A stretch of 64,000 nt of DNA from Leifsonia sp. Leaf336. GTDB lineage: Bacteria > Actinomycetota > Actinomycetes > Actinomycetales > Microbacteriaceae. A program made the position numbers and the translations under genes. Of the stretch, positions 2,861 through 63,736 are shown in pieces. Each line of letters begins with the position of its first letter. The first letter of the stretch is position 1. The stretch spans positions 124,658-188,657 of the forward strand of contig NZ_LMOZ01000002.1 of NCBI RefSeq assembly GCF_001423695.1. The letters are read 5' to 3'. The notes below the pieces were generated by a model. The model did no database searches. It was not told where the DNA came from and was given only the letters and a program-made list of their open reading frames with translations.

Positions 2861-3105
2861 GGGTCCCCCTCCGCCGATTCTGCGTCTCACTTACATCATG
2901 TCCGCTCGCGCGGATTCGTCTCACGGCCGTCCAGGAGGCGCGGTCTCCGCTCCGCCGGCTCGAATGTGCGCGCGGACGGATGCGTCTCAAAACGGTCCTC
3001 CACTCCGGCGTGTCGCCAGTGGCCCGTTGCATGGAACCGACGATTCCGGCTTGACTGAGGAGCCGGCTGTGGTCGGCTGATGGATTCGCTGCGGGGGGAG
3101 TGACC

Positions 3106-3702
3106 TTGGGAAGACGCGCGCGAGCGGCCGCGGGGGCGGCCGTTCTCGGCCTGTCGATCACAGTGACGGCGCTGGGGGCGAGCGCCGCGAGCGCGGCCGG
3201 GCCGGCGGTGGCGCCACCGCCGGCCGCGGCCGCCGGCGAGAGCTGCTGGTACGCGGTCGACACCGGCCAGAGCCTGTGCGTGACGACGGGGGAGGACCTT
3301 GTCGCGGCGGTCGCCGAGGAGAAGGGCGTGCTGCTGATCATCCCGAACGGCGAGACCGTCTCCGGGCGGAAGGTCGACGCACGCAGGGAGGCCGCGCTCG
3401 CGCCGGCGGGCCTCCTCGCCAGCACGGCCGTGTCGACCATCTACGACGACAACAACTACGGGGGCGGCTCGTACACGATGTCGGTCTCGAGTGGCAGCTG
3501 CGCGACCACCGCATTCGGCTTCACCGACATCGGCCCGCTCGGCTGGTACAACCGTGTCTCGTCGTTCAAGAGCTACGGCGGCTGCAAGACGGCGCTGTTC
3601 AGCAGCACCAACTACGGCGGATCGACCACCGGTTACTCCACGTCGCTGAGCTCGGTCGGGTCGATGAACGACCTCGCCAAGTCCTGGAGAGTCTCCGGCT
3701 GA
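3106..3702 (+). CDS. Secreted beta/gamma-crystallin-like protein, peptidase inhibitor I36 type
   Basis: An Ala-rich signal peptide (about residues 1-36, with AAVLGLSITVTALGASAASA) precedes a 160-residue exported protein. The C-terminal 85 residues carry the crystallin Greek-key pattern: YDDNNYGGGSYTM, then GWYNRVSSFKSYGG, then FSSTNYGG and NDLAKSWRV. This is the layout of the I36 inhibitor/crystallin family of actinomycetes. Two Cys pairs could form disulfides. I prefer the TTG at 3106 (GGGGGAG 5 bp upstream) over the GTG at 3100, which abuts the purine run. Target proteases are unknown. Confidence 0.8.
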   Translation: MGRRARAAAGAAVLGLSITVTALGASAASAAGPAVAPPPAAAAGESCWYAVDTGQSLCVTTGEDLVAAVAEEKGVLLIIPNGETVSGRKVDARREAALAPAGLLASTAVSTIYDDNNYGGGSYTMSVSSGSCATTAFGFTDIGPLGWYNRVSSFKSYGGCKTALFSSTNYGGSTTGYSTSLSSVGSMNDLAKSWRVSG

Positions 3703-3745
3703 CCCTCCCGCGGCATTCGCCGCGCCAGCGGAGGCCGGATGACCG

Positions 3746-3786
3746 CGACGGTCGGGAGGTGAAGGGGGTTCGCCTCCCGACCGTCG
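3746..3786 (+). terminator. Stem-loop terminator candidate
   Basis: A perfect 14-bp inverted repeat (3746-3759 with 3773-3786, CGACGGTCGGGAGG and its complement) with a 13-bp loop lies 44 bp after the crystallin-like gene. No T-run follows, as is common for high-GC actinobacterial terminators. It isolates the gene from the aromatic catabolic operon downstream. Confidence 0.6.
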
Positions 3787-3840
3787 GCGGGGCACCGCGA
3801 GCGCGGAGATGGCGCACGTGGAGGTGGTCGCAGGGTGCGG

Positions 3841-3854
3841 GATGATATACGATC
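3841..3854. promoter_or_regulatory. Candidate GntR operator before the homoprotocatechuate operon
   Basis: The site reads GATGATATACGATC, an imperfect palindrome around TATA, 50 bp before the first gene of the operon. A near-identical site (12 of 14 bases) lies at 5500-5513 before the third gene. Both are the AT-rich part of their promoter, and a FadR/VanR-type GntR gene sits in the same operon, so they are probably its binding sites. Confidence 0.55.
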
Positions 3855-3904
3855 CTCACGGGGCGATCGGCTCCTTCTCCTTACGCCGTCGAAGGGAGCC
3901 ATCG

Positions 3905-4690
3905 GTGCTCGACAGCCCGACCATCCAGGCCATCGCGGACGAGCTCGCGACCGCTGAACGGGATCGCACGACCGTCCCGCTGCTGACCGCCCGCCACCCC
4001 GGCATGACCGTGGAGGACTCCTACGCCGTGCAGCGCGTCTGGGTCGAACGCGGCCTCGCCGCCGGCCGACGGCTCGTCGGCCGCAAGATCGGCCTGACCT
4101 CCAAGGTCATGCAGCAGGCGACCGGCATCACGGAGCCCGACTACGGGGCGATCTTCGCCGACATGGTCTACGAGACCGGTGCGGTGATCCCGTTCGACCA
4201 GTACTCGAACGTGCGCATCGAGGTCGAGCTCGCATTCGTGCTGGCCCGCCCGCTCGCGGGCCCCGACGTGACCCTGTTCGACGTGCTCGACGCCACGAAG
4301 TACGTGGTTCCCGCGCTCGAGATCCTGTCGTCGCGCATCGAGCTGCAGGGGCGCACCATCGTCGACACGATCTCCGACAACGCGGCGATGGGCGGCATGG
4401 TGGTCGGCGGTCGCCCGGTGGCGGTGGATGCGGTCGACCTGCGCTGGGTCGGCGCCCTCCTCTACCGCAACGAGATCATCGAGGAGTCCGGCGTCGCCGC
4501 GGCCGTGCTCGACCATCCCGCCGCGGGCGTCGCCTGGCTCGCGAACAAGCTCGCGCAGCACGGCACGCGTCTGGAGGCCGGCGACATCGTCCTGGCCGGG
4601 TCCTTCACGCGCCCGATGTGGGTCGAGCGCGGCGACACCATCCACGCCGACTACGGAACCCTGGGAGCCGTGACATGCCGATTCAACTGA
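3905..4690 (+). CDS. hpaH: 2-oxo-hept-4-ene-1,7-dioate hydratase (HpaH-like)
   Basis: This 261-residue enzyme should add water to 2-oxohept-4-ene-1,7-dioate to give 4-hydroxy-2-oxoheptanedioate, the substrate of the next gene product. It has the fumarylacetoacetate-hydrolase-like fold of the HpaH/MhpD hydratases: RLVGRKIGLTSKVMQQATGI near residue 60, the metal-binding region RIEVELAFVLARPL, and PALEILSSRIEL. Length fits the family (about 267). The GTG at 3905 is chosen because GAAGGGA lies 9 bp upstream; the longer reading covers the operator and lacks a ribosome site. It overlaps the aldolase gene by 16 bp. Related hydratases for other 2-hydroxydienoates look similar; the neighbours decide the substrate. 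Confidence 0.88.
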   Translation: MLDSPTIQAIADELATAERDRTTVPLLTARHPGMTVEDSYAVQRVWVERGLAAGRRLVGRKIGLTSKVMQQATGITEPDYGAIFADMVYETGAVIPFDQYSNVRIEVELAFVLARPLAGPDVTLFDVLDATKYVVPALEILSSRIELQGRTIVDTISDNAAMGGMVVGGRPVAVDAVDLRWVGALLYRNEIIEESGVAAAVLDHPAAGVAWLANKLAQHGTRLEAGDIVLAGSFTRPMWVERGDTIHADYGTLGAVTCRFN

Positions 4691-38190: not shown

Positions 38191-39687
38191 ATGCCGCTCT
38201 CGCCACTGAGGTTCCGCCTCCTCGTCACCTCCCTCCTCGTCGTGTCCTTCCTGGGCGCTCTCGACAACACCGTCGTCAGCACCGCCATCGCCACGGTCGC
38301 CGGCCAGCTCGGCGCGCTCGAGCACATGAGCTGGATCGTGGTGGGCTACACGCTCGCCAGCACGGCGCTCCTGCCGGTGCTCGGCAAGCTGGGCGACCGG
38401 ATCGGCCCGCGCGCGGTGTTCCTGGCCTCCGTCGTGGTCTTCATCCTCACGTCGATCGCGTGCGGCTTCGCCAACGGCATCGTCTGGCTGATCGTCGCGC
38501 GCGTCGTGCAGGGGATGAGCTCGGCCGGCCTCCAGCTGATGTCGCAGACGATCATCGCCGAGGCGACGACGCCGCGGCAGCGGCCGAAGTTCATGGCGAT
38601 CATCGGGGCCGCCTTCCCGGTCGCGATCCTGATCGGGCCGGTGCTCGGCGGCGTCATCACCGACTACTGGGGCTGGCCCTGGGTCTTCTGGATCAACGCG
38701 CCGGTCGGGCTCGTCGCGCTCGCGCTCGCGGTCGTCGCCGTCCCGCACATCGAGCCGGGGCGGTCCGGGAGGTTCGACATCGTCGGAGCCATTACGCTCA
38801 CGATCGGGCTGGTCGCCCTCGTGCTCGCGGTGACCTGGATCGGCGACAGCTCCCAGACCGTCGCCACCGCGGTCGCGTTCGCCGTCGCCGTCATCGCGTT
38901 CATCGTCTTCTTCGTCGTCGAACTGCGCGTCGACGAGCCGCTCGTGCCGCTCGGCCACTTCCGCGACCGCACGGTCGCCACCGGAACCGTGATCTCCGCG
39001 ATCGTCGGCATCGGGCTGTTCTCGATCACGTCGTACCTGCCCACCTACTTCCAGATGGCGTACCGGACGAGCGCCACGGTCTCCGGTCTGGTGCCGATCG
39101 CCACGGTGTTCGGGATGCTGGTCAGCAACCTCGCCACCGGCTGGCTGGTGAGCCGCACCGGCCATTACCGCGCCTACCCGCTGATCGGAACGGCGCTCGG
39201 CGCCGCGGGACTCGGCGCCATGGCCCTACTGCCCCTCGGCGCGCCGCTCTGGGCGCCGACGGTCGCGATGGCGGTCGTCGGCCTCGGGACGGGCGCCTTC
39301 ATGAGCCTCATCGTCGCGGTCGTGCAGAGCGCGGTACCCCGCACCGAGACCGGCGCGATCACCGCGAGCGTCAACCTCGTGCGCCAGGTCGGCGCCACGG
39401 TGGCCACCGCCCTGATCGGCGGGATCATCGGCGCGACCGTCGTCGCGATGCTGCCGGCCGGGCTCGACCCCGCGACGCTCACCCCCGCGATCGTCCACGC
39501 GCAGAGCCCCGCCGTGCAGCAGCAGGTCGCCCAGGTCTACCAGGGCGTCTTCGTCCCGATCTTCGTGGCGCTAGCCGCGACCTACCTCGTCGGAGTGGTC
39601 GCGTCGATCCTGCTGCCCGACAAGCGTCTTTCCGACGATCCCGGCCCGCTCCGCGGCGCCGCGACCGAATCCGTCCCCGCCGCCTGA
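38191..39687 (+). CDS. MFS transporter, DHA2-like; possible C-glycoside carrier
   Basis: A 498-residue major facilitator with about 14 membrane segments. LGALDNTVVSTAIATVAGQL matches segment 1 of the DHA2 group, LGDRIGPRAVFLASVVVF is the A-loop, and GAAFPVAILIGPVLGGVITD is motif C. The family mostly exports drugs. But only 41 bp separate it from the flavin oxidoreductase, so it is probably the first gene of the operon 38191-44150 and may import the C-glycoside or export its aglycone. The start lacks a strong ribosome site. Confidence 0.85.
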   Translation: MPLSPLRFRLLVTSLLVVSFLGALDNTVVSTAIATVAGQLGALEHMSWIVVGYTLASTALLPVLGKLGDRIGPRAVFLASVVVFILTSIACGFANGIVWLIVARVVQGMSSAGLQLMSQTIIAEATTPRQRPKFMAIIGAAFPVAILIGPVLGGVITDYWGWPWVFWINAPVGLVALALAVVAVPHIEPGRSGRFDIVGAITLTIGLVALVLAVTWIGDSSQTVATAVAFAVAVIAFIVFFVVELRVDEPLVPLGHFRDRTVATGTVISAIVGIGLFSITSYLPTYFQMAYRTSATVSGLVPIATVFGMLVSNLATGWLVSRTGHYRAYPLIGTALGAAGLGAMALLPLGAPLWAPTVAMAVVGLGTGAFMSLIVAVVQSAVPRTETGAITASVNLVRQVGATVATALIGGIIGATVVAMLPAGLDPATLTPAIVHAQSPAVQQQVAQVYQGVFVPIFVALAATYLVGVVASILLPDKRLSDDPGPLRGAATESVPAA

Positions 39688-39728: not shown

Positions 39729-41327
39729 ATGACAACCACCAAGACGATCGCCGTCGTCGGCAGCGGCCCGATCGGTTCCGCCTACGCCCGCCTGCTGCTG
39801 GAGGCCGTGCCCGACGCGCGCGTCGTCCTGTTCGAGGCCGGCCCGCAGCTGACCGCCATCGCCGGTGAGAACGTCCGCAACATCCCCGACCCGGAGGAGA
39901 AGGAGCGCGCGCGCGAGCGCTCGCAGGGCCCGCAGGCCGGCGCGTTCCGCGAGTCGCTCGGCATCCCGTCGTCGGTCGTCGTGGAGGGCATGTTCACCGC
40001 GCGCGGAGGAACGCACCTGCTCGACTACGGCGGACAGGGCGCGGCGCACACGCCGACCTTCCCGGCCGCCGCGGCCTCCACCAACGTGGGCGGCATGGGT
40101 GCGCACTGGACGTGCGCGACGCCGAGCCCGTCGTTCAGCGAGCGCATCCCGTTCATCGCCGATGCCGAGTGGGAGGAGCTGGTCGCGGAGGCGTCGCGGC
40201 TGCTGCACGTGCAGACCGCCGCCTTCGCCGACTCCGAGATCGGGTCGGCCATCCGGTCGCTGCTGGCCGAGGAGTTCGCCGGCGAGCTGCCCGAGGGGTA
40301 CGGCCCCGGCACTCTGCCGGTCGCCGGCGACCCGCAGCCCGACGGCACGATGCGCTGGGCGGGCGCCGACGTGGTGCTCGGTCCGCTGCTCGACCCCGGG
40401 AACGAGCCTGCGGAGCGTTTCGAGCTGCGCGACCTCTCCCTGGTGCGCCGGATCGACCACAGCGACGGCGGGGTCACCGGCGTGACCGTCGAAGACCTCC
40501 GCAGTCACGAGGTGTACGCGGTGGAGGCCGACCTGGTGGTCGTCGCGGGCGACGCGTTCCGCTCGCCGCAGCTCCTGTGGGCGTCGGGCATCCGGCCGCG
40601 GGCGCTCGGCCACTACCTCACCGAGCACCCGGTCGTGATCTCGACCGTCGCGCTCGACGCCGACAGCATGAGGCGCTTCGCGACGGAGGACGAGCTCGAC
40701 CAGGAGCTCGCCCGCCGCGCGACGAACCCGGCCGACCCGGTCGCGGCCGTCAACCGCATCCCGTTCTCGGAGCCGGACCACCCGTTCTCGCTGCAGGTCA
40801 TGTACGCGGAGAACCCGCCCTTCCAGCTCGATCCTGACCATCCCGCGGCCGGCAACCGCTGGGGCTACGTCAACATGGGCTACGGGATGCGCAAGCGGCC
40901 GCGCTTCGACGACGCCGTCACCTTCGACGACGACGAGCTCGACTACCGCGGCTTCCCCAACCTCACCATCACCTACGCGCTCACCGATGCCGAGCAGGCC
41001 GAGATCGCGGAGGCCACGGAGCGCCTGCGCCGGGCCGGCAACGCGCTCGGCACGTTCGTCGCCGAGCCGCGGCTGCTGCCGAACGGCTCCAGCCTCCACT
41101 ACCAGGGCACGATGCGGCTCGGCGCGGAGGACGACGGCACCTCGGTCGCCGACCCCTACTCGCGCGTGTGGGGCTACGACAACCTCCTCGTCGGAGGCAA
41201 CGGGCTGATCCCGACCGCCACCACGATGAACCCCACTCTGATGAGCGTGGCGATCGCCGTGCGCGGCGCGCGCGAGGCCGCCCGTCGGCTGAGCGCCGTG
41301 CCGCAGGCCGCCGCACGAACGAACTGA
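39729..41327 (+). CDS. GMC-type FAD oxidoreductase, C-glycoside 3-oxidase (CarA-like)
   Basis: A 532-residue flavoenzyme. The FAD-binding motif AVVGSGPIGSAYARLLLEAV opens it, and STNVGGMGAHWTCATP follows. The active-site pair is His457 (SSLHYQGTMRLG) and Asn501 (TMNPTLMSVAIAVRGAR). Known relatives are pyranose oxidases and the Microbacterium CarA, which oxidises the sugar of carminate at C3 before C-C cleavage. That role fits because a deglycosidase beta gene follows within 13 bp and alpha-type genes come next. The ATG has CAGGAGA upstream. The exact glycoside is not known. Confidence 0.85.
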   Translation: MTTTKTIAVVGSGPIGSAYARLLLEAVPDARVVLFEAGPQLTAIAGENVRNIPDPEEKERARERSQGPQAGAFRESLGIPSSVVVEGMFTARGGTHLLDYGGQGAAHTPTFPAAAASTNVGGMGAHWTCATPSPSFSERIPFIADAEWEELVAEASRLLHVQTAAFADSEIGSAIRSLLAEEFAGELPEGYGPGTLPVAGDPQPDGTMRWAGADVVLGPLLDPGNEPAERFELRDLSLVRRIDHSDGGVTGVTVEDLRSHEVYAVEADLVVVAGDAFRSPQLLWASGIRPRALGHYLTEHPVVISTVALDADSMRRFATEDELDQELARRATNPADPVAAVNRIPFSEPDHPFSLQVMYAENPPFQLDPDHPAAGNRWGYVNMGYGMRKRPRFDDAVTFDDDELDYRGFPNLTITYALTDAEQAEIAEATERLRRAGNALGTFVAEPRLLPNGSSLHYQGTMRLGAEDDGTSVADPYSRVWGYDNLLVGGNGLIPTATTMNPTLMSVAIAVRGAREAARRLSAVPQAAARTN

Positions 41328-41340
41328 AAGGAAGGACGAC

Positions 41341-41742
41341 ATGCTCGAAGAACAGCTGATCCAGGCTGCCGGGTTCCGCAACGTCGGACCGGACGACGCC
41401 CCCTCGGGGTTCCAGCTGCGGGTGCGGAGCCCGTACTACCGCGGGCTCTGGGGCAACCTGATCGAGAAGCCGACAGTGACCGTCGACGGCGAGGAGTTCG
41501 GCGGGGACGACATCGTCTGGACCCTGCCGACCGGCGAGTACACCTTCGACGAGCTGCAGAGGTCGCCCGACGCGCGCTGGCCCATGGACGCGCCGGCACT
41601 GCTCACCGTTCCCAAACCCGGCGGGCTGACGCGCGGCATCCACGATGTGACGCTCGAGCTGCGCCTGCGCATGTCGTACATCCCCGAAGAGCTCCAGCCT
41701 TCGATCTGGACCACGAGCCGGAAGGCGGTGATCGTCCGATGA
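41341..41742 (+). CDS. C-glycoside deglycosidase beta subunit (DUF6379-like)
   Basis: A 133-residue beta-sandwich protein. GFQLRVRSPYYRGLWGNLIE matches the strand pattern (IPWYRSLWLS in its paralogs), then PTVTVDGEEFGGDDIVWTL, and HDVTLELRLRMSYIPEEL near the end, where paralogs have RLPYMQI. This is the beta subunit type (DgpB/CarB) that forms the cleavage enzyme with a TIM-barrel alpha subunit. Its stop overlaps the start of the next gene, an alpha subunit, by 4 bp, so the pair is made together. AAGGAAGG precedes the ATG. Confidence 0.82.
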   Translation: MLEEQLIQAAGFRNVGPDDAPSGFQLRVRSPYYRGLWGNLIEKPTVTVDGEEFGGDDIVWTLPTGEYTFDELQRSPDARWPMDAPALLTVPKPGGLTRGIHDVTLELRLRMSYIPEELQPSIWTTSRKAVIVR

Positions 41743-42665
41743 GCGCGCTTCCGTTCGGCCTGGGCGTCTCCCTGTACAGCTACACCGAGGACATCGGCGT
41801 CACGATGACGGTCGAGGACTGCATCGAGGACGTCGCGGACCTCGGCGCCACCGGGCTCGAGATCCTCGGCGAGGGCCACATCGCGGACTACCCGAACCCC
41901 TCCACCGCCTGGATCGACGCCTGGTTGGCCCGCAACGAGCGTCTCGGGCTCACCCCGACCCTGTACGGATCGTGGATCGACACGCGCCGGTTCCCGGGCC
42001 GCTCGATGACGGCCGCGGAGGGCGCCGCCCAGCTCGCGCTCGACCTGCGGCTGGCCGGCCGGCTCGGCTTCTCGTTCGTGCGTCCGAAGATCGGCGTGAT
42101 CTCCGGCGATTTGCGGGTCGACCCGATCTGGCAGGAGGCGGTGGAGCGCAACCTGGAGCTCGCGGAGGAGCTCGGCATCGTCATCTGCCCCGAGATCCAC
42201 TGGCCGACGGTCATCAAGTCCCCGGTGGTCGAGGAGTACCTGGAGTTCAAGGAGCGCACCGGAGGTTCGCAGTTCGGCCTGCTGATCGACACCGGCGTCT
42301 TCGACGTACAGCGCTACCGGCGGCGCGGCGGCAGCGCCGCCTTCCGGATGGGCGACGGGGGAGCGATGCCGCCCGACGTGCCGTTCGTGCCGGTGTCCGA
42401 CCTCGCCGACGTGATGGAGCACACCGTGTACTTCCAGGCCAAGTTCTACGAGGTCGACGACGACCTGGTCGACCACTACATTCCCTGGCGGGAGATCATC
42501 GACGTCGTCGTCGCCTCCGGCTACACCGGCTGGCTGTCGAGCGAGTACGAGGGCCATCACGAGCCCTACCGTGCCGCCGACCAGCTGCGCCGGCAGCACG
42601 CCCTCATCCGATCCATCGCCGCCGAACGCGCGGCCGCCGCCCCGGCGCTCGCAGACGGGAACTGA
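41739..42665 (+). CDS. C-glycoside deglycosidase alpha subunit (TIM barrel)
   Basis: A 308-residue xylose-isomerase-like TIM barrel. GVSLYSYTEDIGVTMTVEDC begins the barrel. Metal-site positions expected for the fold are Glu (ICPEIHWP), Asp (GLLIDTGVFD) and Glu (WLSSEYEGHHEPYR). The third position, His in all its paralogs here (HVHAKFYD), is Gln in this one (VYFQAKFYEV). Known alpha subunits (DgpC/CarC) cleave the C-C bond of 3-keto-C-glycosides with a divalent metal. Paired by overlap with the beta gene, it is the best canonical alpha/beta unit of the island. Confidence 0.8.
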   Translation: MSALPFGLGVSLYSYTEDIGVTMTVEDCIEDVADLGATGLEILGEGHIADYPNPSTAWIDAWLARNERLGLTPTLYGSWIDTRRFPGRSMTAAEGAAQLALDLRLAGRLGFSFVRPKIGVISGDLRVDPIWQEAVERNLELAEELGIVICPEIHWPTVIKSPVVEEYLEFKERTGGSQFGLLIDTGVFDVQRYRRRGGSAAFRMGDGGAMPPDVPFVPVSDLADVMEHTVYFQAKFYEVDDDLVDHYIPWREIIDVVVASGYTGWLSSEYEGHHEPYRAADQLRRQHALIRSIAAERAAAAPALADGN

Positions 42666-42668
42666 CCC

Positions 42669-44150
42669 ATGCCCAACGGACTCATCGACGACGTGAGCCT
42701 GCGCGTCCACCCCGAGGGCGTCGCCCTCGCCCTCACCATCCCCTGGTACCGCAGCCTGTGGCTGTCGTCGGTCACCACGTTGCAGCTGACCCTCGACGGT
42801 GTGAAGGTGCCGGAGGAGGACCTCGCGTTCGAGCTCGACGGCGTGCGCTATCGCGTCGCCGACCTCCCTCAGCAGAGCGACGTGCTCTGGTACCTGCAGT
42901 GGCACCCGCTGCTGATCGTGCGGCGCGACCCGGCCGTCGAGCTCGGCGAGACGCACGAGGTCGAACTGCACGGCGAGCTGCGGCTGCCGTACATGCAGAT
43001 CAAGCCGGGGGAGGACGGCGGCCCCGGCCTCTACGTCCCGAACGTCGTGCACCAGCGGCTGACGCTCACCGCGACCGACCACGACGCCCCGCCGCCCGCG
43101 CTCGTCACCGATGTGCCGCCGGCACCGGAGGCGACCGAGGCCGACCCGTTCACGCTGGGGCTGACGCTGTACTCGGCCAGCGCGGAGTTCCGGGCGGGCT
43201 GGTTCGACTTCGACGGCCTCCTCGACCGCGTGGCCGAACTCTGCATCGGCCCGGGCATCGAGATCGTCGCCTCCCAGGTGCTGCCGACCTACCCGGTCGT
43301 GTCCGACGAGTTCGTCGCGACCTGGCGGGAGGCGTTCGACCGGCACGGCTTCGACGCCAGCTCGTTCGGGGCCAACCTCGACATGGGCAAGCGGCGCGAC
43401 CGCGACATGACGCCCGACGAGGAATTCGAGGTCAGCGAACTGCTGTTCCGCGGCGCGGCGAAGCTCGGCTTCCCGCTGGTGCGCATCCAGTCGGCCAAGC
43501 CCGCGCTGCTACGTCGCCTGCTGCCGATCGCCGAAGACCTCGAGCTGAAGCTCGCCTTCGAGATCCACGCTCCCCTCGGGCCGAACTCGCCGGAGATCGT
43601 GTCGGTGCGCGACCTCTACGCCGAGCTCGACTCGCCGCTGCTCGGGTTCGTGGCCGACTTCTCCTCGACCATGCAGAGCATGTCGCCGACGCTGCTGCGT
43701 GCGGTGCGGCGGGCGGGTCTCGACGATGCGGCGGTGCAGCGCCTCCAGGAGATCTGGGCGACCGACGCGTCGATGCGCGAACGCCAGCAGGAGTTCATCG
43801 GCTACCTGAACGGCCGCGGCTTCGACCCTGGGCGGCTCGGCGCGTTCGCCCACCTGGCGTTCAACATGCACGGCCACGTCGACCCGCACGAGTGGTCCGA
43901 CATCATGCCGCAGATCCTGCACGTGCACGCCAAGTTCTACGACATCGACGAGAACGGCCAGGAGCCGGCGATCGACTATCCGGAGCTCGTGAAGGTGTTC
44001 GTCGAGGGAGGCTACCGCGGCTACTGGTCGAGCGAGTGGGAGGGGCACGCGTTCGCCGAGCTGGGGGAGGTCGACCCGCTCCTGCTCGTGCGCAAGCAGC
44101 ACGACCTCATCAGGGCCAGCATGCGCTCGCTGCAGACCGCCCGGCGGTAG
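42669..44150 (+). CDS. Single-chain beta-alpha fusion, C-glycoside deglycosidase-like
   Basis: A 493-residue protein in which both subunits are joined. Residues 1-135 are a beta-type domain (IPWYRSLWLSSVTTLQLTLD, then RLPYMQIKPGEDGGPGLYVP). An Ala/Pro linker follows (PPPALVTDVPPAPEATEADP, about 140-160). Residues 162-490 are a TIM barrel (LGLTLYSASAEFRAGWFDFD, NLDMGKRRDRDMTPDEE). All four metal positions are kept: FEIHAP, GFVADFSST, HVHAKFYD and SSEWEGHAF. There is no break in the frame. It ends the first operon, 29 bp before a terminator. The split genes 57053 and 58929 look like its separated halves. Confidence 0.82.
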   Translation: MPNGLIDDVSLRVHPEGVALALTIPWYRSLWLSSVTTLQLTLDGVKVPEEDLAFELDGVRYRVADLPQQSDVLWYLQWHPLLIVRRDPAVELGETHEVELHGELRLPYMQIKPGEDGGPGLYVPNVVHQRLTLTATDHDAPPPALVTDVPPAPEATEADPFTLGLTLYSASAEFRAGWFDFDGLLDRVAELCIGPGIEIVASQVLPTYPVVSDEFVATWREAFDRHGFDASSFGANLDMGKRRDRDMTPDEEFEVSELLFRGAAKLGFPLVRIQSAKPALLRRLLPIAEDLELKLAFEIHAPLGPNSPEIVSVRDLYAELDSPLLGFVADFSSTMQSMSPTLLRAVRRAGLDDAAVQRLQEIWATDASMRERQQEFIGYLNGRGFDPGRLGAFAHLAFNMHGHVDPHEWSDIMPQILHVHAKFYDIDENGQEPAIDYPELVKVFVEGGYRGYWSSEWEGHAFAELGEVDPLLLVRKQHDLIRASMRSLQTARR

Positions 44151-44178
44151 GGCGCTGTGACATCCCGAAGCGATCGAG

Positions 44179-44227
44179 GGGCACGTAAACGCCCCTAAAA
44201 CGCCGCTTTTGGGGCGTTTACGTGCCC
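44179..44227. terminator. Bidirectional terminator hairpin (copy 2)
   Basis: A 17-bp perfect stem (44179-44195 with 44211-44227, GGGCACGTAAACGCCCC and its complement) is extended inward by AAAA/TTTT. It separates the first C-glycoside operon from the converging LysR gene. The sequence is largely the same as the hairpin at 31081-31145, so this is a reused element. Confidence 0.85.
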
Positions 44228-44244
44228 TTCGGCGGAGGGTTAGC

Positions 44245-45180
44245 TCAGGTGTGCTCGCCGGCGGCGACGATACGGCCGGCCTCCTCGAAGAGCCCGCGCA
44301 TCCAGGTGTGCTCGGGGTCGTGCGTGTGCACCGGGTGCCACCACAGCGCGTTGACGATCGGCGTCGGGGCGAACGGGAGGCCGACCACGCGCACCGCGCC
44401 GGCACGCTGGGCGAGGGGCACCAGGGCCCGATGGATGATGCCGACGCGGCGGGTGCCCGCGATGAAGTGCGGGATGGCCAGGAAGCTCTCGACCACGACC
44501 TCCACGTTGGGCTCGATGCCGAGCTGCTGCACCTGGCGCTCCGCCGAGGTGAACGCCGAGCGCGACTGGTAGTTCATCACCCAGGGCAGCTTCGACATCT
44601 CGTCACGCGACAGCGCGTCGCCGACCTCGTCGTTGTCCTCGGCCACGATCGCGACCCAGTCGTCCTGCCAGAGGTCGACGAACGGCAGCTCGGTGAGGAA
44701 GCCGTGCGGGATGACCATGCCGTCCACCGAGCGGAGCCGGTTCGCCGCATCCTCGACGACGGTCGGGTTGTGCAGCATGAACCGGAAGTGCACTCCAGGC
44801 GCCTGCGCGGCGGCCAGCTCGGAGACCACGCGCCCGATGGTGGTGAAGCCGTAGTCGGAGCCGAAGATCGAGAACTGCCGCACCGACTCGGACGGGTCCC
44901 ACGTCGCCTGGCTCTCGAACACCCGGCGCGCGGCCTCCAACGCGATCGTCGTGTGGTCGGCTAGGCGCAGCGCCAGCGGCGTCAGCTCGTACGTGTTGCC
45001 GCGGCGGGCGAGGATCGGGTCGTCGAAGTGGATGCGCAGCCGCGAGAGCGACGCACTGAGCGCCGGCTGGCTCAGCCGCAGACGCTCGGCCGCACGGGTC
45101 ACGCTGCGCTCGGTGAGGAGCGCGTCCAGCGCGATCAGGAGGTTCAGATCGAGCCGCGACATCAGCGGATAGTCGGTCAC
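44245..45180 (-). CDS. LysR-family transcriptional regulator
   Basis: A 311-residue regulator. The helix-turn-helix region is DLNLLIALDALLTERSVTRA, AERLRLSQPALSASLSRLR and LARRGNTYELTPLAL, followed by a periplasmic-binding-like effector domain (FSIFGSDYGFTTIGRVVSEL). The N-terminal pattern is close to NodD/SyrM-type members, some of which sense flavonoids, a suggestive link to C-glycosyl flavonoids. It is divergent from the sugar ABC operon with a LysR-type palindrome between. The GTG at 45180 uses AAAGGA upstream. Confidence 0.88.
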   Translation of the reverse strand: MTDYPLMSRLDLNLLIALDALLTERSVTRAAERLRLSQPALSASLSRLRIHFDDPILARRGNTYELTPLALRLADHTTIALEAARRVFESQATWDPSESVRQFSIFGSDYGFTTIGRVVSELAAAQAPGVHFRFMLHNPTVVEDAANRLRSVDGMVIPHGFLTELPFVDLWQDDWVAIVAEDNDEVGDALSRDEMSKLPWVMNYQSRSAFTSAERQVQQLGIEPNVEVVVESFLAIPHFIAGTRRVGIIHRALVPLAQRAGAVRVVGLPFAPTPIVNALWWHPVHTHDPEHTWMRGLFEEAGRIVAAGEHT

Positions 45181-53103: not shown

Positions 53104-53898
53104 ATGTACGAGCTCGCACCCAACATCGAACTGCTCTTCACGGAGGCCGGCGACTACCACGACCGCGTGCGTGCGGCCGCGGCGGCGGGCTTCGGCGCCG
53201 TGGAGATGTGGGGACCGACCGGCGTCGACGCGCCGTCGACGCCGAAGGACCTCCCCGCCCTCAAGGCCGCACTGGAGGAGACCGGCACGAAACTCACCGC
53301 CCAGCTCTCGGAGCCGCGCACCCAGTTCATGATTCCGCCGTGGGACCACAGCGAGTTCTACCGCAAGCTCGACGAGGGCGTCGCGATCGCGCAGGACCTC
53401 GGCTGCCCGCGCATCGTCGTCGGCAGTGGCACGGGCTTCGGAGGCTGGAAGCGGCAGGTGCAGCTCGACAAGCTGGTCGAGATCTACCAGAAGGCCGTCG
53501 CGCAGATCGACGGGTCGGGCATCACGCTCGCGCTGGAGCCGGTCAACATCCGCGTCGACCACCCCGGCTCGCTGCTCGACCGCACGGCGGAGGCCGTCTA
53601 CGTGGCGCGCGGTGTGGACTCGCCGTTCTTCGGGGTGCTCTACGACATCTACCACTCGGCGGTCGAAGGCGAGGACATGGCGGCGGAGCTCGCGAACGCG
53701 GGCGACCTGATCGCGTACGTGCAGCTCGCGGACGCCCCGGGCCGCGGCGAGCCGGGCTCTGGCGACCTCGATTGGGCGGACCGCCTCGGCATCCTCCGGG
53801 CCTCCGGCTACGACGGGCCGATCGGGCTCGAGTACTACCCGACCCAGGAGTCGGCGGCCTCCGTCGCGCTCATCCGCGAACTGGCGGCGGCGGCATGA
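53104..53898 (+). CDS. Hydroxypyruvate-isomerase-like TIM-barrel protein
   Basis: A 264-residue protein of the Hyi/IolI-like sugar isomerase group. The metal ligands are in ITLALEPVNIRV (Glu), GVLYDIYHSAVEG (Asp), YVQLADAPGRGEPGSGDLDW (with Gln-Leu-Ala) and IGLEYYPTQES (Glu). The APGRxEPGxG loop is the hallmark of hydroxypyruvate isomerase-like enzymes, including 2-oxo-tetronate isomerase. It is shorter than the alpha subunits and may isomerise the keto or anhydro sugar released by C-C cleavage. It overlaps the next flavoenzyme gene by 4 bp. Confidence 0.83.
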   Translation: MYELAPNIELLFTEAGDYHDRVRAAAAAGFGAVEMWGPTGVDAPSTPKDLPALKAALEETGTKLTAQLSEPRTQFMIPPWDHSEFYRKLDEGVAIAQDLGCPRIVVGSGTGFGGWKRQVQLDKLVEIYQKAVAQIDGSGITLALEPVNIRVDHPGSLLDRTAEAVYVARGVDSPFFGVLYDIYHSAVEGEDMAAELANAGDLIAYVQLADAPGRGEPGSGDLDWADRLGILRASGYDGPIGLEYYPTQESAASVALIRELAAAA

Positions 53899-55542: not shown

Positions 55543-55941
55543 GTGATCCCCGATCGCATCATCGAGCAGGGCACGCTCACGACCACCGGCACACGTGCCG
55601 CGGTCGAAGTGCGCATCCCCTGGTACCGCGCGCTCCCGGCGTCCTGCATCGCAGGCGCCACGCTGTCCATCGACGGCGTGCCTGCTCCGGTCGAGACGCT
55701 CCGCTGGGAGCTCAACGGCCGCGAGCGCACCTTCGCCGAGATGGCCGACGACACCGAGTCGTGGTGGTTCCCGCTCGACTCCGCGGTGCTCTCCGGTGAC
55801 GTCCCGGTGGCGGCCGACGGCGAGCAGCACGAGGTCGCCGTCGACCTCACCGTGTACATCCCGTACATCATCATCGGCGACGACGAGGTGCTCCACATCG
55901 AGGAGCACGACACCAAGACCATGAAGGCGGTGGCGGCATGA
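55543..55941 (+). CDS. C-glycoside deglycosidase beta subunit (DUF6379-like), second copy
   Basis: A 132-residue beta-type subunit. The first strands read AVEVRIPWYRALPASCIAGA, then TLSIDGVPAPVETLRWELNG, and VDLTVYIPYIIIGDDEVLHI near the end. The IPWYR motif places it with the DgpB/CarB family. It starts with GTG behind AAGGAGG and overlaps the following alpha gene by 4 bp, making a normal beta-alpha pair. Confidence 0.82.
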   Translation: MIPDRIIEQGTLTTTGTRAAVEVRIPWYRALPASCIAGATLSIDGVPAPVETLRWELNGRERTFAEMADDTESWWFPLDSAVLSGDVPVAADGEQHEVAVDLTVYIPYIIIGDDEVLHIEEHDTKTMKAVAA

Positions 55942-57056
55942 GCGACTCGACCTCCCGCCTCGGATCCCCGATCCAGGGCGTGACCCTCTACAGCTTCACG
56001 CGGGCGTTCCACGGCCGCGAGTACGACCTCGAAGGCCTCATCCGCAAGGTCGCCGCCGACGGGTACGGTCCGGGGCTGGAGATCATCGGCTTCTCCAGCT
56101 TCCGCGGCTTCCCGACGATCGACGACGCGTTCGCGGGCTGGTTCCGCGACCTGGTCGCCGAGGTCGACCTCGTGCCGACGTCGCTGGCGATCAACGCCGA
56201 CATCGGCATCCACCGCGACCGGCTACTGAACCAGGACGAGCTCATCGAGTACATGCGCCGCCAGATCGAGGCCGCGGCGAAGCTCGGTTTCCCGATCGCG
56301 CGGGTGCAGATCTCGATCACGCCCGACTCGATGGCCGCGCTCGCGCCGATCGCCGAGCAGTACGGGGTGACGCTCGCGCTGGAGGTGCACGCCGACCAGT
56401 ACGCCTCGCACCCGCGCATCCTCGCGCTGCGCGACCGGTACGAGAAGGTCGGCTCCCCGTTCCTCGGCTTCACCGCCGACTGGGGCGCGACGACCGTGGG
56501 CTTCGCGCCGTCGCTGCTGGAGGCCTACCGCCGCCGCGGCGCGACGGACGAGCTGCTCGGCCAGGTCGTCGACCTCTGGAACGAGTTCTACGAAGCGGGC
56601 CCTCCCGCCGACCAGGCCGACCACGGCCAGCGCTTCGGCCGGTTCATCGGCCTCGCCGCGCAGAACGGCCGCCCCGACCTCGGCATCGACTTCGCCATCA
56701 ACGGCACCGGGCTCTTCGGCCCGGCCCGCGTCGACGACTGGCTCGAGATCATGCCGTGGATCAAGCACGTGCACGGCAAGTTCTTCGGCATCGACGAGAA
56801 CCACGAAGAGCCGTCCGTTCCGGTGCGCGACCTCATCGCGCTGCTGACGCAGAACGGCTACAACGGCGCGATCTCGAGCGAGTACGAGGGCTGGCACTGG
56901 AACTACTGGCAGTCGCCGTTCGAGATCATCCGCGACGAGCAGGCCGTGCAGCGCTCGGCTGCGCAGAACGCGGGGAGCCGGATGGTCACCGACGCCGCGG
57001 AGGCCCGCCTCCAGCTGTCGCAGTGGCTGCCGACCACCGAAGGAGCAAGCGCATGA
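55938..57056 (+). CDS. C-glycoside deglycosidase alpha subunit (TIM barrel), second copy
   Basis: A 372-residue TIM barrel. GVTLYSFTRAFHGREYDLEG starts it, and all four expected metal ligands are present: LALEVHAD, GFTADWGATT, HVHGKFFGIDEN and ISSEYEGWHWNYW. The two-residue HxH pattern and the Trp-rich end fit alpha subunits of C-glycoside deglycosidases. It pairs with the beta gene upstream and overlaps a second alpha-type gene downstream by 4 bp, so one beta might serve two alphas. Confidence 0.82.
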   Translation: MSDSTSRLGSPIQGVTLYSFTRAFHGREYDLEGLIRKVAADGYGPGLEIIGFSSFRGFPTIDDAFAGWFRDLVAEVDLVPTSLAINADIGIHRDRLLNQDELIEYMRRQIEAAAKLGFPIARVQISITPDSMAALAPIAEQYGVTLALEVHADQYASHPRILALRDRYEKVGSPFLGFTADWGATTVGFAPSLLEAYRRRGATDELLGQVVDLWNEFYEAGPPADQADHGQRFGRFIGLAAQNGRPDLGIDFAINGTGLFGPARVDDWLEIMPWIKHVHGKFFGIDENHEEPSVPVRDLIALLTQNGYNGAISSEYEGWHWNYWQSPFEIIRDEQAVQRSAAQNAGSRMVTDAAEARLQLSQWLPTTEGASA

Positions 57057-58111
57057 CCACTGAGAGCATGAGCACTGGCGAACCGGACGGCATCGTCGGC
57101 ACCGGCATCAAGCTGGGCACGACCCTCTACTCGATGACGAGCGAGTTCGCGGCCGGCCTCTACACGCCAGAGACCCTGATCGCCTCGGTCGCCGAGAACG
57201 GCATCGGCCCGGGCGTCGAGTTCAACATCGCCCAGTTGCTGCGCACGTACCCCGACGTCGATGCGGAGTTCGAGAAGCTCTGGTTCGACTCGCTCGAGAA
57301 ATACGAGCTCGAGCCGAGCGCCGTCGGCACCAACCTCGACATGGGCCGTCGCAAAGACCGCGACATGACGCCGGACGAGGAGCACGACTTCCTCGCCCGG
57401 CAGCTGAAGACCGCGCACACGCTCGGCTTCAAGCGGGTCGTCATCCGCTCGGCCGGGCGCGAGCTGCTGCGCAGCCTCCTGCCGCTGGCCGAGAAGTACG
57501 ACCAGCGGCTCGGCTACGAGATCCACGCGCCGCAGGGCCCGAACGACCCCAAGGTCGTCGGCATCCGCGAGCTCTACGACGAGCTCGGCAGCGACCGGCT
57601 CGGCTTCACCGCCGACTTCTCCTCCACGATGCACAGCCTGTCGCCGACGCTGCTGTCGCAGCTGGCGAAGATGGGCCTCGACGAGAAGCACTTCGGCGTG
57701 ATGGACGAGATCTGGCACGAGCCGACGCCCATGCACGTGCGCAACCAGAAGTTCGAGGACTACCTCACCGGCGAGGGCGTCGACCCGGCGCGCTTCGGCC
57801 CGTTCACCCGGCTGGCGTTCAACATGCACGGCCTGGTGCCGCCGGAGGAGTGGCTCGACATCATGCCGCAGATCTTCCACGTGCACGCGAAGTTCTACGA
57901 CATCGACGCGGAGGGCCATGAGCCCGCCATGGACATCCCGCGCATCGTGCGCCAGTTCGTCCAGGGCGGCTACCGCGGGTACCTCTCCAGCGAGTGGGAG
58001 GGTCACGCGTTCCAGGACCTCGGGGAGGCCGACCCGATCGACCTCGTCAAGAAGCAGCACGCGCTCATGCGGCGCACCATCGAAGACGCCGTCGCCGGCG
58101 TCCCGGCCTGA
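57053..58111 (+). CDS. C-glycoside deglycosidase alpha subunit-like (TIM barrel), third copy
   Basis: A 352-residue TIM barrel. KLGTTLYSMTSEFAAGLYTP begins the barrel, and NLDMGRRKDRDMTPDEEHDF is almost the same as in the fusion protein at 42669. Metal positions are GYEIHAP, GFTADFSST, HVHAKFYD and SSEWEGHAF. It is clearly the free-standing version of the fused alpha domain. Its matching beta may be the protein at 58929, which resembles the fused beta domain, although an NTF2-like gene stands between. AAGGAGC precedes the ATG. Confidence 0.82.
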   Translation: MTTESMSTGEPDGIVGTGIKLGTTLYSMTSEFAAGLYTPETLIASVAENGIGPGVEFNIAQLLRTYPDVDAEFEKLWFDSLEKYELEPSAVGTNLDMGRRKDRDMTPDEEHDFLARQLKTAHTLGFKRVVIRSAGRELLRSLLPLAEKYDQRLGYEIHAPQGPNDPKVVGIRELYDELGSDRLGFTADFSSTMHSLSPTLLSQLAKMGLDEKHFGVMDEIWHEPTPMHVRNQKFEDYLTGEGVDPARFGPFTRLAFNMHGLVPPEEWLDIMPQIFHVHAKFYDIDAEGHEPAMDIPRIVRQFVQGGYRGYLSSEWEGHAFQDLGEADPIDLVKKQHALMRRTIEDAVAGVPA

Positions 58112-58133
58112 TCCGCGAAGGAGCACGTCAGCC

Positions 58134-58919
58134 ATGTCAGACACCGTCGCCGAGACCACCGTCTCGGAGCTCGTCGCCGAGGTCGCGCGCCTCCGCGAGG
58201 AGGTCGCGGCCGCGCGGGGCCTCGCCCGCCGCGCCGCCGACCGCGGCGAGATCGAGAACCTCTTCAGCCGCTACATGTACCTGCACAACGCGTTCGAGGA
58301 CGAGCAGATCATTCCGCTCTGGGTGAAGGAGGGCACGGAGGGCATCCGTGCCCGCTACACCAACGCGGGCCAGTACACGACCTACGAGAGCGTCATCCGG
58401 TACCACCAGGGGCGCCCGAACCCGGTCGGCAAGCTCATCCTGCACGCCACCACCACGCCCGTGATCGAGGTGGCCGCCGACGGCGAGACAGCCAAAGGCG
58501 TCTGGCTGATGGCCGGTACCGAGTCAGGCCTGACCGACCCGGTGGTCGCCAAGGACAGCCCCGACTTCATGTACTCGGCGGGCGAGGTGCAGGGCAAGAA
58601 AGTCTGGGCGCACTGGGTCTGGTGCAAGTACGCCATCGACTTCCTCCGCCAGGACGGCGAGTGGAAGATCTGGAAGTTCCGCTGCTACGAGCTCGCCCGC
58701 GCGCCGTTCGAGGAGAACTGGGTCAGCTTCGGCGAGAAGAACCAGGATGCCTTCGACCTCGACCTGATGTACTTCGGCGACGACGGCAAACCCGTGTTCA
58801 TGCCGCCGGCGGACGAGCCCGTGCCGAGCGAGAACCACCCGTACAGCCCGAGCACGGTGCAGACGCTCGAGCCCGCGCCTCCGGTCCCGCACGACACCTT
58901 CACCGACACGTTCAAGTAG
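58134..58919 (+). CDS. NTF2/SnoaL-like protein, long form
   Basis: A 261-residue protein. A short N-terminal coiled-coil-like helix (SELVAEVARLREEVAAARGL) precedes an NTF2-like domain: RGEIENLFSRYMYLHNAFED, then GVWLMAGTESG and HWVWCKYAIDFLRQDGEWKI, WKFRCYELARAPFEENWVSF. The tail (about 60 residues, Pro-rich) is unusual. Similar multi-substrate NTF2-like proteins occur beside aromatic and glycoside catabolic genes. It sits between an alpha-type and a beta-type gene. GAAGGAG precedes the ATG. The reaction is unknown. Confidence 0.75.
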   Translation: MSDTVAETTVSELVAEVARLREEVAAARGLARRAADRGEIENLFSRYMYLHNAFEDEQIIPLWVKEGTEGIRARYTNAGQYTTYESVIRYHQGRPNPVGKLILHATTTPVIEVAADGETAKGVWLMAGTESGLTDPVVAKDSPDFMYSAGEVQGKKVWAHWVWCKYAIDFLRQDGEWKIWKFRCYELARAPFEENWVSFGEKNQDAFDLDLMYFGDDGKPVFMPPADEPVPSENHPYSPSTVQTLEPAPPVPHDTFTDTFK

Positions 58920-58928
58920 GAGACGCTG

Positions 58929-59345
58929 ATGGCCACACACAACTCGCTCTTCGCCGAGAGGGACGTCCGGCGCACGGCCGACGGCATCGCCGTCTCGGTG
59001 CAGCTGCCCTGGTACCGCAGCCTCTGGCTGTCCGCCGTCGACGACGTCGCCGCGACGGTCAACGGCGTCGCGATCCCGCGCGACGACCTCCGCTTCGAGC
59101 TGAACGGACGCAGCTACCGCATCGACGAGCTGCCCGAGCAGACCGAGACCCTCTGGTTCGTCGCCGACCGTCCGGACGTCGTGATCCCGCTGGGCCACGC
59201 GCCGGCGGCCGGCGAGAAGCTCACGGTGGAGGTCGTGCTCACGATGCGGCTGCTCTACATGCAGATCATGCCGGGAGTCGACGGCGGCCCCGGCCGGTAC
59301 GTGACCAACCGCGTGCCCGTCGAGCGCGAGCTGGTGCTGGCATGA
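58929..59345 (+). CDS. C-glycoside deglycosidase beta subunit-like (DUF6379-like), third free copy
   Basis: A 138-residue beta-type domain. LPWYRSLWLSAVDDVAATVN and LLYMQIMPGVDGGPGRYVTN closely match residues in the N-terminal half of the fusion at 42669 (IPWYRSLWLS and YMQIKPGEDGGPGLYV). It therefore looks like the free form of that fused beta domain, with the protein at 57053 as its alpha partner. It is followed with 4-bp overlap by the Gfo/Idh/MocA gene. Confidence 0.82.
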   Translation: MATHNSLFAERDVRRTADGIAVSVQLPWYRSLWLSAVDDVAATVNGVAIPRDDLRFELNGRSYRIDELPEQTETLWFVADRPDVVIPLGHAPAAGEKLTVEVVLTMRLLYMQIMPGVDGGPGRYVTNRVPVERELVLA

Positions 59346-60535: not shown

Positions 60536-61546
60536 ATGCCCCGACCGATCACCCTGTTCACCGGCCAGTGGGCCGACCTCCCGTTCGAAGAAGTGGCCCG
60601 GCTCGCCGGCGAGTGGGGCTACGACGGACTCGAGATCGCCTGCTGGGGCGACCACCTCGACGTGTCCCGATGGAACGACGCCGACTACGTGCGATCGCGC
60701 AAAGACATCCTGGAGCGCAACGGCCTCCAGGTCTGGACGATCTCCAACCACCTCGCCGGGCAGGCCGTCTGCGACGACCCGATCGACGAGCGCCACCGCG
60801 ACATCCTGAACGACCGGGTGTGGGGCGACGGCGACCCCGAGGGCGTGCGGCAGCGCGCCGCCGAGGAGCTGAAGCTCACCGCCCGCATGGCCGCGGCGCT
60901 GGGCGTGAAGACCGTCACCGGCTTCACCGGGTCGTCGATCTGGAAGGCCGTCGCGATGTTCCCGCCGGCCTCAGACGAGTGGATCGCCGCCGGTTACCGG
61001 GACTTCGCCGACCGCTTCCACCCGATCCTCGACGTCTTCGAGGAGGTCGGCGTCCGGTTCGCGCTGGAGGTGCATCCCTCCGAGATCGCATACGACTACT
61101 GGACCGCGAAGGCGACGCTGGAGGCCATCGGCCATCGCGAGAGCTTCGGGATCAACTTCGACCCCTCGCACTTCATGTGGCAGCAGCTCGACCCGGTGGC
61201 GTTCGTGCTCGACTTCGCCGACCACATCTTCCACGTGCACGTGAAGGAGTCGGTCACCAACCTCGACGGCCGCAACGGCGTGCTCGGCTCGCACCTGCCG
61301 TGGGCGAACCCGCGCCGCGGCTGGACGTTCGTCTCAACCGCGCACGGCGAGGTGCCGTGGGAGCCGATCTTCCGCGCGCTCAACTTCATCGGTTACACCG
61401 GACCGACCTCCGTCGAGTGGGAGGACGCCGGCATGGACCGCCTCCAGGGCGCCCCGGAGGCCATCGCCTTCGTGCGCGAGCTCAACGCGATCACCCCGCC
61501 CGACGCGGCCTTCGACGCCGCCTTCTCGACGAAGGCGGGCCGATGA
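60536..61546 (+). CDS. Sugar phosphate isomerase/epimerase-family TIM barrel
   Basis: A 336-residue TIM barrel unlike the alpha subunits in detail. [20 protein letters not shown] and [14 protein letters not shown] start it, [38 protein letters not shown] and [11 protein letters not shown] supply the metal ligands. The pattern is that of broad sugar isomerase/epimerase proteins often found beside MocA-type dehydrogenases and acting on 3-keto sugars or inosose-like compounds. GAGGAGGA precedes the ATG, and it overlaps the ThuA-like gene by 4 bp. Confidence 0.85.
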
Positions 61547-62428: not shown

Positions 62429-63736
62429 CTAGAGGGAGGCGCTGGCCAGCGCGAGGTGCGCGCGCGTCTGCTGGGTGGGGTCCTCGTCCAGCCACTCATG
62501 GCCTCCCCACTCGCTGCAGAGCGTGCCGGCGAAGCCGGCCGCGGCGTCTCGCAGGAGCGCGCCGAGGTCGCGCAGCGGCCGGGAGACGCGGTCGTCTGCG
62601 TCGTCGAGGTCCCAGAACTTGAGGTGGAACGCGCCGATGAGCGGGAGGATGCCGCGCAGCGCCTCCACCGGCGAGCGGCCGAATCGCACGAGCAGGTTCA
62701 TGTACAGCGCGTGCGCAGCGGGAGGCACGGCGCCCGATCGCAGGTGGGCCACGACGGCGTCGAGCGTCTCCGGCTCCAGCCACGCGTCGGTCAGCCGTGC
62801 CCGTAGCGCGTCCGGGATGTGCGGCGCGAGCGCCGCGAGGTAGGTGACCGGGAGCGCCGGCATCAACATGCTGGTGTCGATGAGCAGCCGGACGCGGGGA
62901 TCGTCGAATTCGGCGATATCGTCCATCGCCCGAGCGACAGCCGGTGCCTCCGGTGTCTGCTGCCCCTGGGCTTCCTCGTAGAGCGTCAGGTCGAGCTCGT
63001 GGAGCACGGGCTGCACGCGACGCAGCAGCGCGGGGCCGGCCTGTCCGAGCGGCAGCCGCACTCCCTCCGCCCCGAGGTCATGCGCGGTGCGCAACTGGGG
63101 GAGGAGGAAGGCGAGCCGCTCGTCGTCGTCGCGCCGCCTGGTGGGACTCACCCAGTCATCGAGGCTCGCGCCGACGATGCCGACCCGGCCGCCCGCGGCG
63201 GCGATCCGATCGCGGAGGTCCGCGGCCTCCGCCGGGGGTGTGATCGGGAACGACCTCCACAGCTGGCCCGGTTCGAGCTCGACCACGCGTGAGACTCCGG
63301 AGGCCACGATGCCGACCGCGATGTCGGCGGCCGGCCGCTCGGCGCGGATGACCTCTGGCGTCCAGTTGAAGGCGCTGGCGGCGAGCGTCCACGGCGTCTC
63401 GGCGACGGCCTCCAGGCGTCGCTCGCCCGCGAAGTCCAGCACCAGCGGTGCATCGGGCCCGGCCGGGAGGTACGGGATGAGCAGCCGGAACGACACGGCG
63501 ACACTGTGCGGGCCGGCGGAGAGCGGGCGGCGGCCGCGCAGGGCGAGCCGGTCTTGCACGAACCACCAGCCGTCGCCGTCCGGCACGTCGACGGCGCACT
63601 CCTCGCCGTCGAGGTGGAGGCGCACCCCTGACACGCTCGACAGCGGCAGCGACCGGATCCACGGCAGGCTCACGTGCACCGCGAACCCGTCGACGGAGGC
63701 GGTGAGCGCGTCGTCACGCAGGATCGGCAGGGTCAT
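62429..63736 (-). CDS. Second single-chain beta-alpha fusion, C-glycoside deglycosidase-like
   Basis: A 435-residue protein with the same beta-alpha order. Residues 1-115 are a beta-type domain (HVSLPWIRSLPLSSVSGVRL, then VAVSFRLLIPYLPAGPDAPL). Residues 125-435 are a TIM barrel (IAVGIVASGVSRVVELEPGQ). Metal positions are LYEEAQG, RLLIDTSML, AFHLKFWDLDD and CSEWGGHEWLDED, so it seems complete though diverged from the first fusion. It lies on the opposite strand to the rest of the island, with GGAGGAAG before the ATG and its own upstream palindromes. It is a separately regulated unit. Confidence 0.8.
   Translation of the reverse strand: MTLPILRDDALTASVDGFAVHVSLPWIRSLPLSSVSGVRLHLDGEECAVDVPDGDGWWFVQDRLALRGRRPLSAGPHSVAVSFRLLIPYLPAGPDAPLVLDFAGERRLEAVAETPWTLAASAFNWTPEVIRAERPAADIAVGIVASGVSRVVELEPGQLWRSFPITPPAEAADLRDRIAAAGGRVGIVGASLDDWVSPTRRRDDDERLAFLLPQLRTAHDLGAEGVRLPLGQAGPALLRRVQPVLHELDLTLYEEAQGQQTPEAPAVARAMDDIAEFDDPRVRLLIDTSMLMPALPVTYLAALAPHIPDALRARLTDAWLEPETLDAVVAHLRSGAVPPAAHALYMNLLVRFGRSPVEALRGILPLIGAFHLKFWDLDDADDRVSRPLRDLGALLRDAAAGFAGTLCSEWGGHEWLDEDPTQQTRAHLALASASL

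Follow-up and report, generated by a model that had tools for sequence, protein, structure and literature searches.

A predicted single-chain beta-alpha C-glycoside deglycosidase in Leifsonia sp. Leaf336, from a clade separate from the Microbacterium testaceum enzyme

Few enzymes break carbon-carbon bonds to sugars, and those that remove carbon-linked sugars are usually made of two separate proteins. In soil bacteria, GMC oxidases produce 3-keto C-glycosides, which are the substrates of the deglycosidases (PMC10646112, PMC12724307). In AgCGD2, the manganese ligands are E147, D179, H269, K271 and E305, and the angle of the subunit interface is unlike that of PuCGD (PMC8563793). A natural single-chain beta-alpha enzyme is present among solved structures: PDB entries 8QRZ (crystal) and 8UN2 (cryo-EM), named by Foldseek as the wild-type "Microbacterium testaceum C-glucosyl deglycosidase" and released on 2025-04-23. 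Their chain of 433-435 residues carries a CGDB domain at 2-130 and a TIM barrel at 138-432, and the aligned parts of 8QRZ match M. testaceum NS220 at 100% identity. Our literature search found no paper on 8QRZ/8UN2 or on M. testaceum CGD. The sequence-only reading of the Leifsonia locus had held that no characterised fused form was known, which fails at the level of these structures. It had also offered the fusion as a way to learn how the two parts sit together; this was already known from heteromeric crystal structures (PMC8563793). The novelty, to the extent that our searches could tell, lies in a fusion within the AgCGD2-type branch. The gene described here would represent a second, independent and widespread single-chain lineage, of which our searches found no solved or tested member.

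The fused gene and its surroundings

The window, i.e. the whole 64,000-nucleotide stretch of Leifsonia sp. Leaf336 that was analysed, contains the following features.

42669..44150, + strand: fused beta-alpha C-glycoside deglycosidase, 493 aa, predicted from sequence
42669..43073, + strand: N-terminal beta-sandwich domain of the CGDB (DUF6379) type, residues 1-135 (Pfam, 7dnm_B, model strands)
43074..43142, + strand: interdomain Ala/Pro-rich linker, residues 136-158 (conservation and profile edges)
43143..44123, + strand: C-terminal TIM barrel (residues 159-485) with metal site and helical lid segment (7dnm_A, residues, model)
38191..39687, + strand: MFS transporter, head of the gene row
39729..41327, + strand: GMC oxidoreductase (closest solved structures: 8qve, a pyranose oxidase, and 7qf8, also a GMC oxidoreductase)
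41341..41742, + strand: separate CGDB beta of the upstream pair (2.7e-34 to Pfam; relative of 8QRZ 2-130)
41739..42665, + strand: separate TIM-barrel alpha of the upstream pair (overlaps the beta gene by ATGA; relative of 8QRZ 138-432)
55543..55941, + strand: separate CGDB beta of the third unit
55938..57056, + strand: separate alpha TIM barrel of the third unit (ATGA overlap)
57053..58111, + strand: separate alpha of the fourth unit (A. globiformis alpha orthologue, 80%)
58929..59345, + strand: separate beta of the fourth unit
62429..63736, - strand: divergent beta-alpha fusion, the second in the window, 435 aa (metal ligands align)

The fused gene runs as a single uninterrupted frame from ATG to TAG, exactly at the coordinates first proposed, with the Ala/Pro linker inside the open frame as had been described. 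Pfam CGDB (PF19906) matches residues 15-108 (E 1.9e-13, passing the cut-off) and AP_endonuc_2, the xylose-isomerase-like TIM barrel, matches residues 280-486 slightly below the cut-off (E 1.1e-6). Among solved structures, both chains of AgCGD2 match the protein: 7dnm_B (AgCarC2) aligns to residues 3-138 (E 2e-28) and 7dnm_A (AgCarB2) to residues 160-485, gapless over 326 residues (E 3e-123). The beta-sandwich partner is thus present within the chain, and Foldseek also relates it to 7dnm_B (E 1e-13). These matches support the proposed single-chain beta-alpha C-glycoside deglycosidase; of the domain limits given earlier (beta 1-135, barrel 162-490), the edges moved by a few residues only. No NCBIfam family was found for the fused protein, and the viral fold library returned nothing beyond generic TIM barrels.

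The gene closes a row formed by the MFS transporter, the GMC oxidoreductase and the upstream split pair. The GMC oxidoreductase, an oxidase gene linked to the deglycosidase, is likely, from its sequence, to perform the C3 oxidation that yields the keto-glycoside. The 435-residue chain 8qrz_A was noticed as a phmmer match that is long for an alpha subunit, and its architecture was recognised by querying with the upstream split pair, whose beta matches 8QRZ 2-130 (E 9e-31) and whose alpha matches 8QRZ 138-432 (E 2e-93). The beta domain of the fused protein, used as a sequence query, did not recover 8QRZ. Downstream, a long inverted repeat at 44150-44250 (ggggcacgtaaacgcccctaaaa...ttttggggcgtttacgtgccc) precedes a convergent LysR-type gene (44245-45180, - strand). 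The repeat could terminate transcription from both sides, although it was not among the results of the terminator scan.

Altogether the window holds five deglycosidase-like units: the 8QRZ-type split pair, 42669-44150, 55543-57056, 57053-59345 and 62429-63736. In the fourth unit the order is alpha, a SnoaL-like gene (58134-58919) and beta, while some relatives have a short gap only. In the minus-strand protein the catalytic His is replaced by Ala and the supporting Glu by Gly, so that this sequence may possibly serve another reaction; its relative at locus L065 is fused and the others are split. Two further AP_endonuc_2 TIM-barrel genes (53104-53898 and 60536-61546) resemble hydroxypyruvate isomerase and IolE-like enzymes, and their products perhaps process the released keto-sugar.

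Predicted fold, active site and substrate

Structure prediction, proposed earlier as a check, was run with AlphaFold2 on an alignment of 61 rows. It gave a single two-domain model of high confidence (pLDDT 92.3, pTM 0.91) with the domains packed together and the linker well placed (pLDDT >80). M. testaceum CGD served as a control: its model, predicted in the same way, agreed with the solved chain at 1.1 A over 433 residues, domain placement included. The model superimposes on AgCarB2 with a Z of 43 and on AgCarC2 at 1.9 A, and the helical lid of the AgCGD2 and PuCGD type is found as four helices at 340-399, inside the gapless 7dnm_A alignment. When compared with 8QRZ, the individual domains fit but the full-chain superposition is poor (rmsd 17.6 A, TM 0.52); therefore the domain arrangement of the model is not that of 8QRZ. 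The difference in interface angle between AgCGD2 and PuCGD would fit this departure of the model.

The metal site of the TIM barrel (one His, two Glu, one Asp and one Lys) is complete. Shifted by 151 positions, the manganese ligands of AgCGD2 correspond to E298, D330, H420, K422 and E456, all five identical, which bears out the earlier statement that every metal position is kept. In the ungapped 7dnm_A alignment the catalytic H149 and E307 of AgCGD2 become H300 and E458. E298, D330, K422 and E456 are invariant across the 61 alignment rows, and H300 and E458 are kept in at least 90% of them.

We therefore regard as strongly favoured a single-chain C-glycoside deglycosidase with a within-chain pocket, created by loss of the junction between two genes; most likely, judging from sequence, its product is self-contained and acts downstream of the GMC oxidase step. 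The N-terminal beta-sandwich would cover the mouth of the Mn-binding barrel of its own chain and complete the pocket, in parallel with the role of the separate beta subunit in AgCGD2. The 3-keto C-glycoside delivered by the GMC oxidase encoded upstream would bind at the domain interface, where the metal would hold the sugar, H300 would take a proton and E458 would position a water. Cleavage of the C-C bond by beta-elimination would then release the aglycone.

Alternatively, the domains could pair across chains, so that a beta domain completes the pocket of a neighbouring molecule in domain-swapped dimers or larger rings. Such pairing would recall the alpha4beta4 gut enzymes (PMC8563793), a stretch of 23 residues could extend to a neighbour, and the domain arrangement is unlike that of 8QRZ. 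However, the soil enzymes of the AgCGD2 branch are simple heterodimers (PMC8563793) and the interface is modelled confidently within one chain, so that we hold swapping to be unlikely.

As for the substrate, a C6 preference has been linked to loss of M249, to loss of the loop at 241-242 and to four residues inserted into a beta loop (PMC8563793). In the fused protein F242 and M249 of AgCGD2 are conserved as F393 and M400, and the alignment of AgCarC2 to the beta domain is insertion-free. Because these features are kept and the pocket resembles that of the C8-selective AgCGD2, C8-glucosides and other C8-glycosides are probably the preferred substrates, as far as sequence can indicate. Substrate preference may nevertheless differ from that of AgCGD2, since P241 is replaced by Ala and the beta Thr3 contact is lost. 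The fused form might even serve a different pathway step, with 3-keto O-glycosides or a non-flavonoid plant C-glycoside as substrate. The presence of five deglycosidase-like units in one window suggests that they probably serve different substrates, and C-glycoside-eliminating enzymes are reported to be able to act on O-glycosides too (PMC10628242). Against this, all catalytic residues of AgCGD2 and most of its pocket residues are kept; we consider another substrate unlikely.

Relatives of the fused gene and origin of the linker

The related-locus scan took one genome per species, and 80 of the 111 related places found were kept. Sorted by open frame, the fetched loci hold 302 units that contain an alpha, and 175 of these are fused (duplicates counted). 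Distinct fused relatives of the 42669-44150 protein, the window excluded, number 71. They occur in Microbacteriaceae, which contribute nearly all, Micrococcaceae and Demequinaceae, and include members of Microbacterium, Agromyces, Leifsonia, Subtercola, Naasia, Amnibacterium, Salinibacterium, Pseudolysinimonas, Pseudoclavibacter, Arthrobacter, Pseudarthrobacter and Demequina. Split sisters are found in Geodermatophilaceae, Streptosporangiaceae and Sinomonas. The family is not universal: among 300 genomes from the bacterial family to which the window belongs, 20 carry a CGDB domain of any kind. A search for fused forms in phages found none. Comparison with four relatives gave dN/dS values of 0.10 to 0.36 for both domains, indicating purifying selection; a fifth, with the farthest fused relative (L145), gave 0.93 on the beta domain, a value made unreliable by saturated synonymous sites.

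Some loci needed individual attention. A Niallia plasmid match resembling the fusion is annotated as two genes and was rejected. Locus L151 had been counted as split but carries at 3001-4351 a fused gene, 82% like the 42669-44150 protein, whose frame is broken by a ~120-base deletion or a draft error; its contig label (Planococcus sp.) is probably wrong. At L114 (882-3263) the fused frame extends to 794 aa beyond the usual alpha end, which reflects either a C-terminal extension or a lost stop. L086, from another family of the order, encodes two tandem fused beta-alpha proteins (100-1491 and 1575-2966, - strand) that are 26-27% like known alphas and likely form a further fusion lineage.

The linker between the profile matches is DHDAPPPALVTDVPPAPEATE. 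It is the least conserved internal stretch, with an identity to the window residue of 0.57 compared to 0.72 for the beta and 0.87 for the alpha domain, and yet its length stays at ~20-22 residues in nearly all fused relatives. The chain might be cut there after translation and work as an ordinary alpha-beta heterodimer: ~21 poorly conserved Ala/Pro-rich residues would be exposed to proteases, and the fused MoaX of M. tuberculosis needs cutting to work (PMC4326299). The steady length argues against cutting, as do the confident placement of the linker in the model, the absence of a conserved cleavage motif such as Gly-Gly and the intact single chain of the solved M. testaceum CGD; we judge it improbable. 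An error of sequencing or assembly, for which nothing speaks except the surprising architecture, is practically discounted as the source of the fusion because the same architecture recurs in ~70 independent genomes of 13 genera, which also rules out a frameshift artefact.

All trees were 'quick' trees with SH-aLRT support only, and L151 was left out of the second, combined alpha+beta tree. In that tree the fused clade of the 42669-44150 protein lies among split relatives and is set off by a branch that has 99% support, and three changes between fused and split states are required, all forced by starred branches. The wider alpha tree requires six changes, of which five are forced. The fused clade of M. 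testaceum CGD is separate, both clades are well supported, and the 42669-44150 protein lies outside it. Hence fusion of the same pair of domains took place on at least two independent occasions, in genes that are neighbours within one operon. Indeed, an 8QRZ-type gene lies directly upstream of a 42669-44150-type gene in 57 of the named loci. Most of these carry it in fused form, whereas it is split in Leifsonia, Diaminobutyricibacter and the present window (ATGA overlap). Goekera deserti shows the reverse state, with the 8QRZ-type gene fused and the other split. Neighbours in fused/fused, fused/split and split/fused combinations are all present.

The split sisters point to the route. In Geodermatophilus and Blastococcus the end of the beta gene overlaps the alpha start by ATGA, and the alpha begins with an Ala/Pro tail such as MTATAPARPAQPAVPGSGI ahead of the barrel. 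For Microbispora, Goekera and the NANO1 bin, the start of the alpha gene is ~13 bases past the beta stop. Interdomain spacing is 60-66 nt in the split sisters and 63 nt in the fused gene. Given this overlap and the Ala/Pro tail, the linker probably arose by junction loss. The stop/start junction between adjacent beta and alpha genes would have been lost with a change of frame and no added sequence, leaving a linker made of the former beta tail and alpha N-tail. This event would be independent of the M. testaceum CGD fusion, in whose clade the linker is typically 4-6 residues long compared to ~21 here.

It is an evenly balanced proposition that the two adjacent-gene fusions of one operon reached two within-chain geometries, one with a short linker (DfgAB-like) and one with a 21-residue Ala/Pro linker and another interface angle (AgCGD2-like). 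If so, the 42669-44150 protein would be the first known monomeric enzyme of the second geometry. Two independent fusions beside split copies in the same genomes constitute a natural experiment on when subunits turn into a single chain. A natural single chain, moreover, fixes the 1:1 ratio and would ease expression, engineering and immobilisation.

Comparison with known deglycosidases

AgCGD2 (AgCarB2-AgCarC2 of Arthrobacter globiformis, PDB 7DNM/7DNN) is the closest solved relative in sequence and fold for both domains, with a gapless alpha alignment and identical metal and catalytic residues. However, it is a heterodimer of two chains, and its own orthologue in the window is the split unit 57053-58111 + 58929-59345. 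Soil heterodimeric CGDs of the AgCGD2 and MiCGD type consist of separate polypeptides, whereas the 42669-44150 protein is one. The same holds for PurBC from soil Paenarthrobacter, a C8-selective deglycosidase that acts after a C-glycoside oxidase (PMC12724307) but is a two-chain heterodimer. Deinococcus aerius CGD (PDB 8QVC/8UMC) has alpha and beta folds of the same family, on two chains and with 28-30% alpha identity. The gut enzymes PuCGD (DgpB-DgpC) and EuCGD (DfgA-DfgB) share the fold pair and the chemistry (PMC8563793); they differ by their separate subunits, their alpha4beta4 assembly and their partners, which are Gfo/Idh/MocA oxidoreductases and not GMC oxidases. M. testaceum CGD, like the 42669-44150 protein, is a natural single chain with the beta domain N-terminal and the alpha domain C-terminal. 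Unlike it, M. testaceum CGD belongs to the DfgAB-like branch (28% alpha identity), has a linker of ~4 residues, places its domains differently and has a separate fusion origin.
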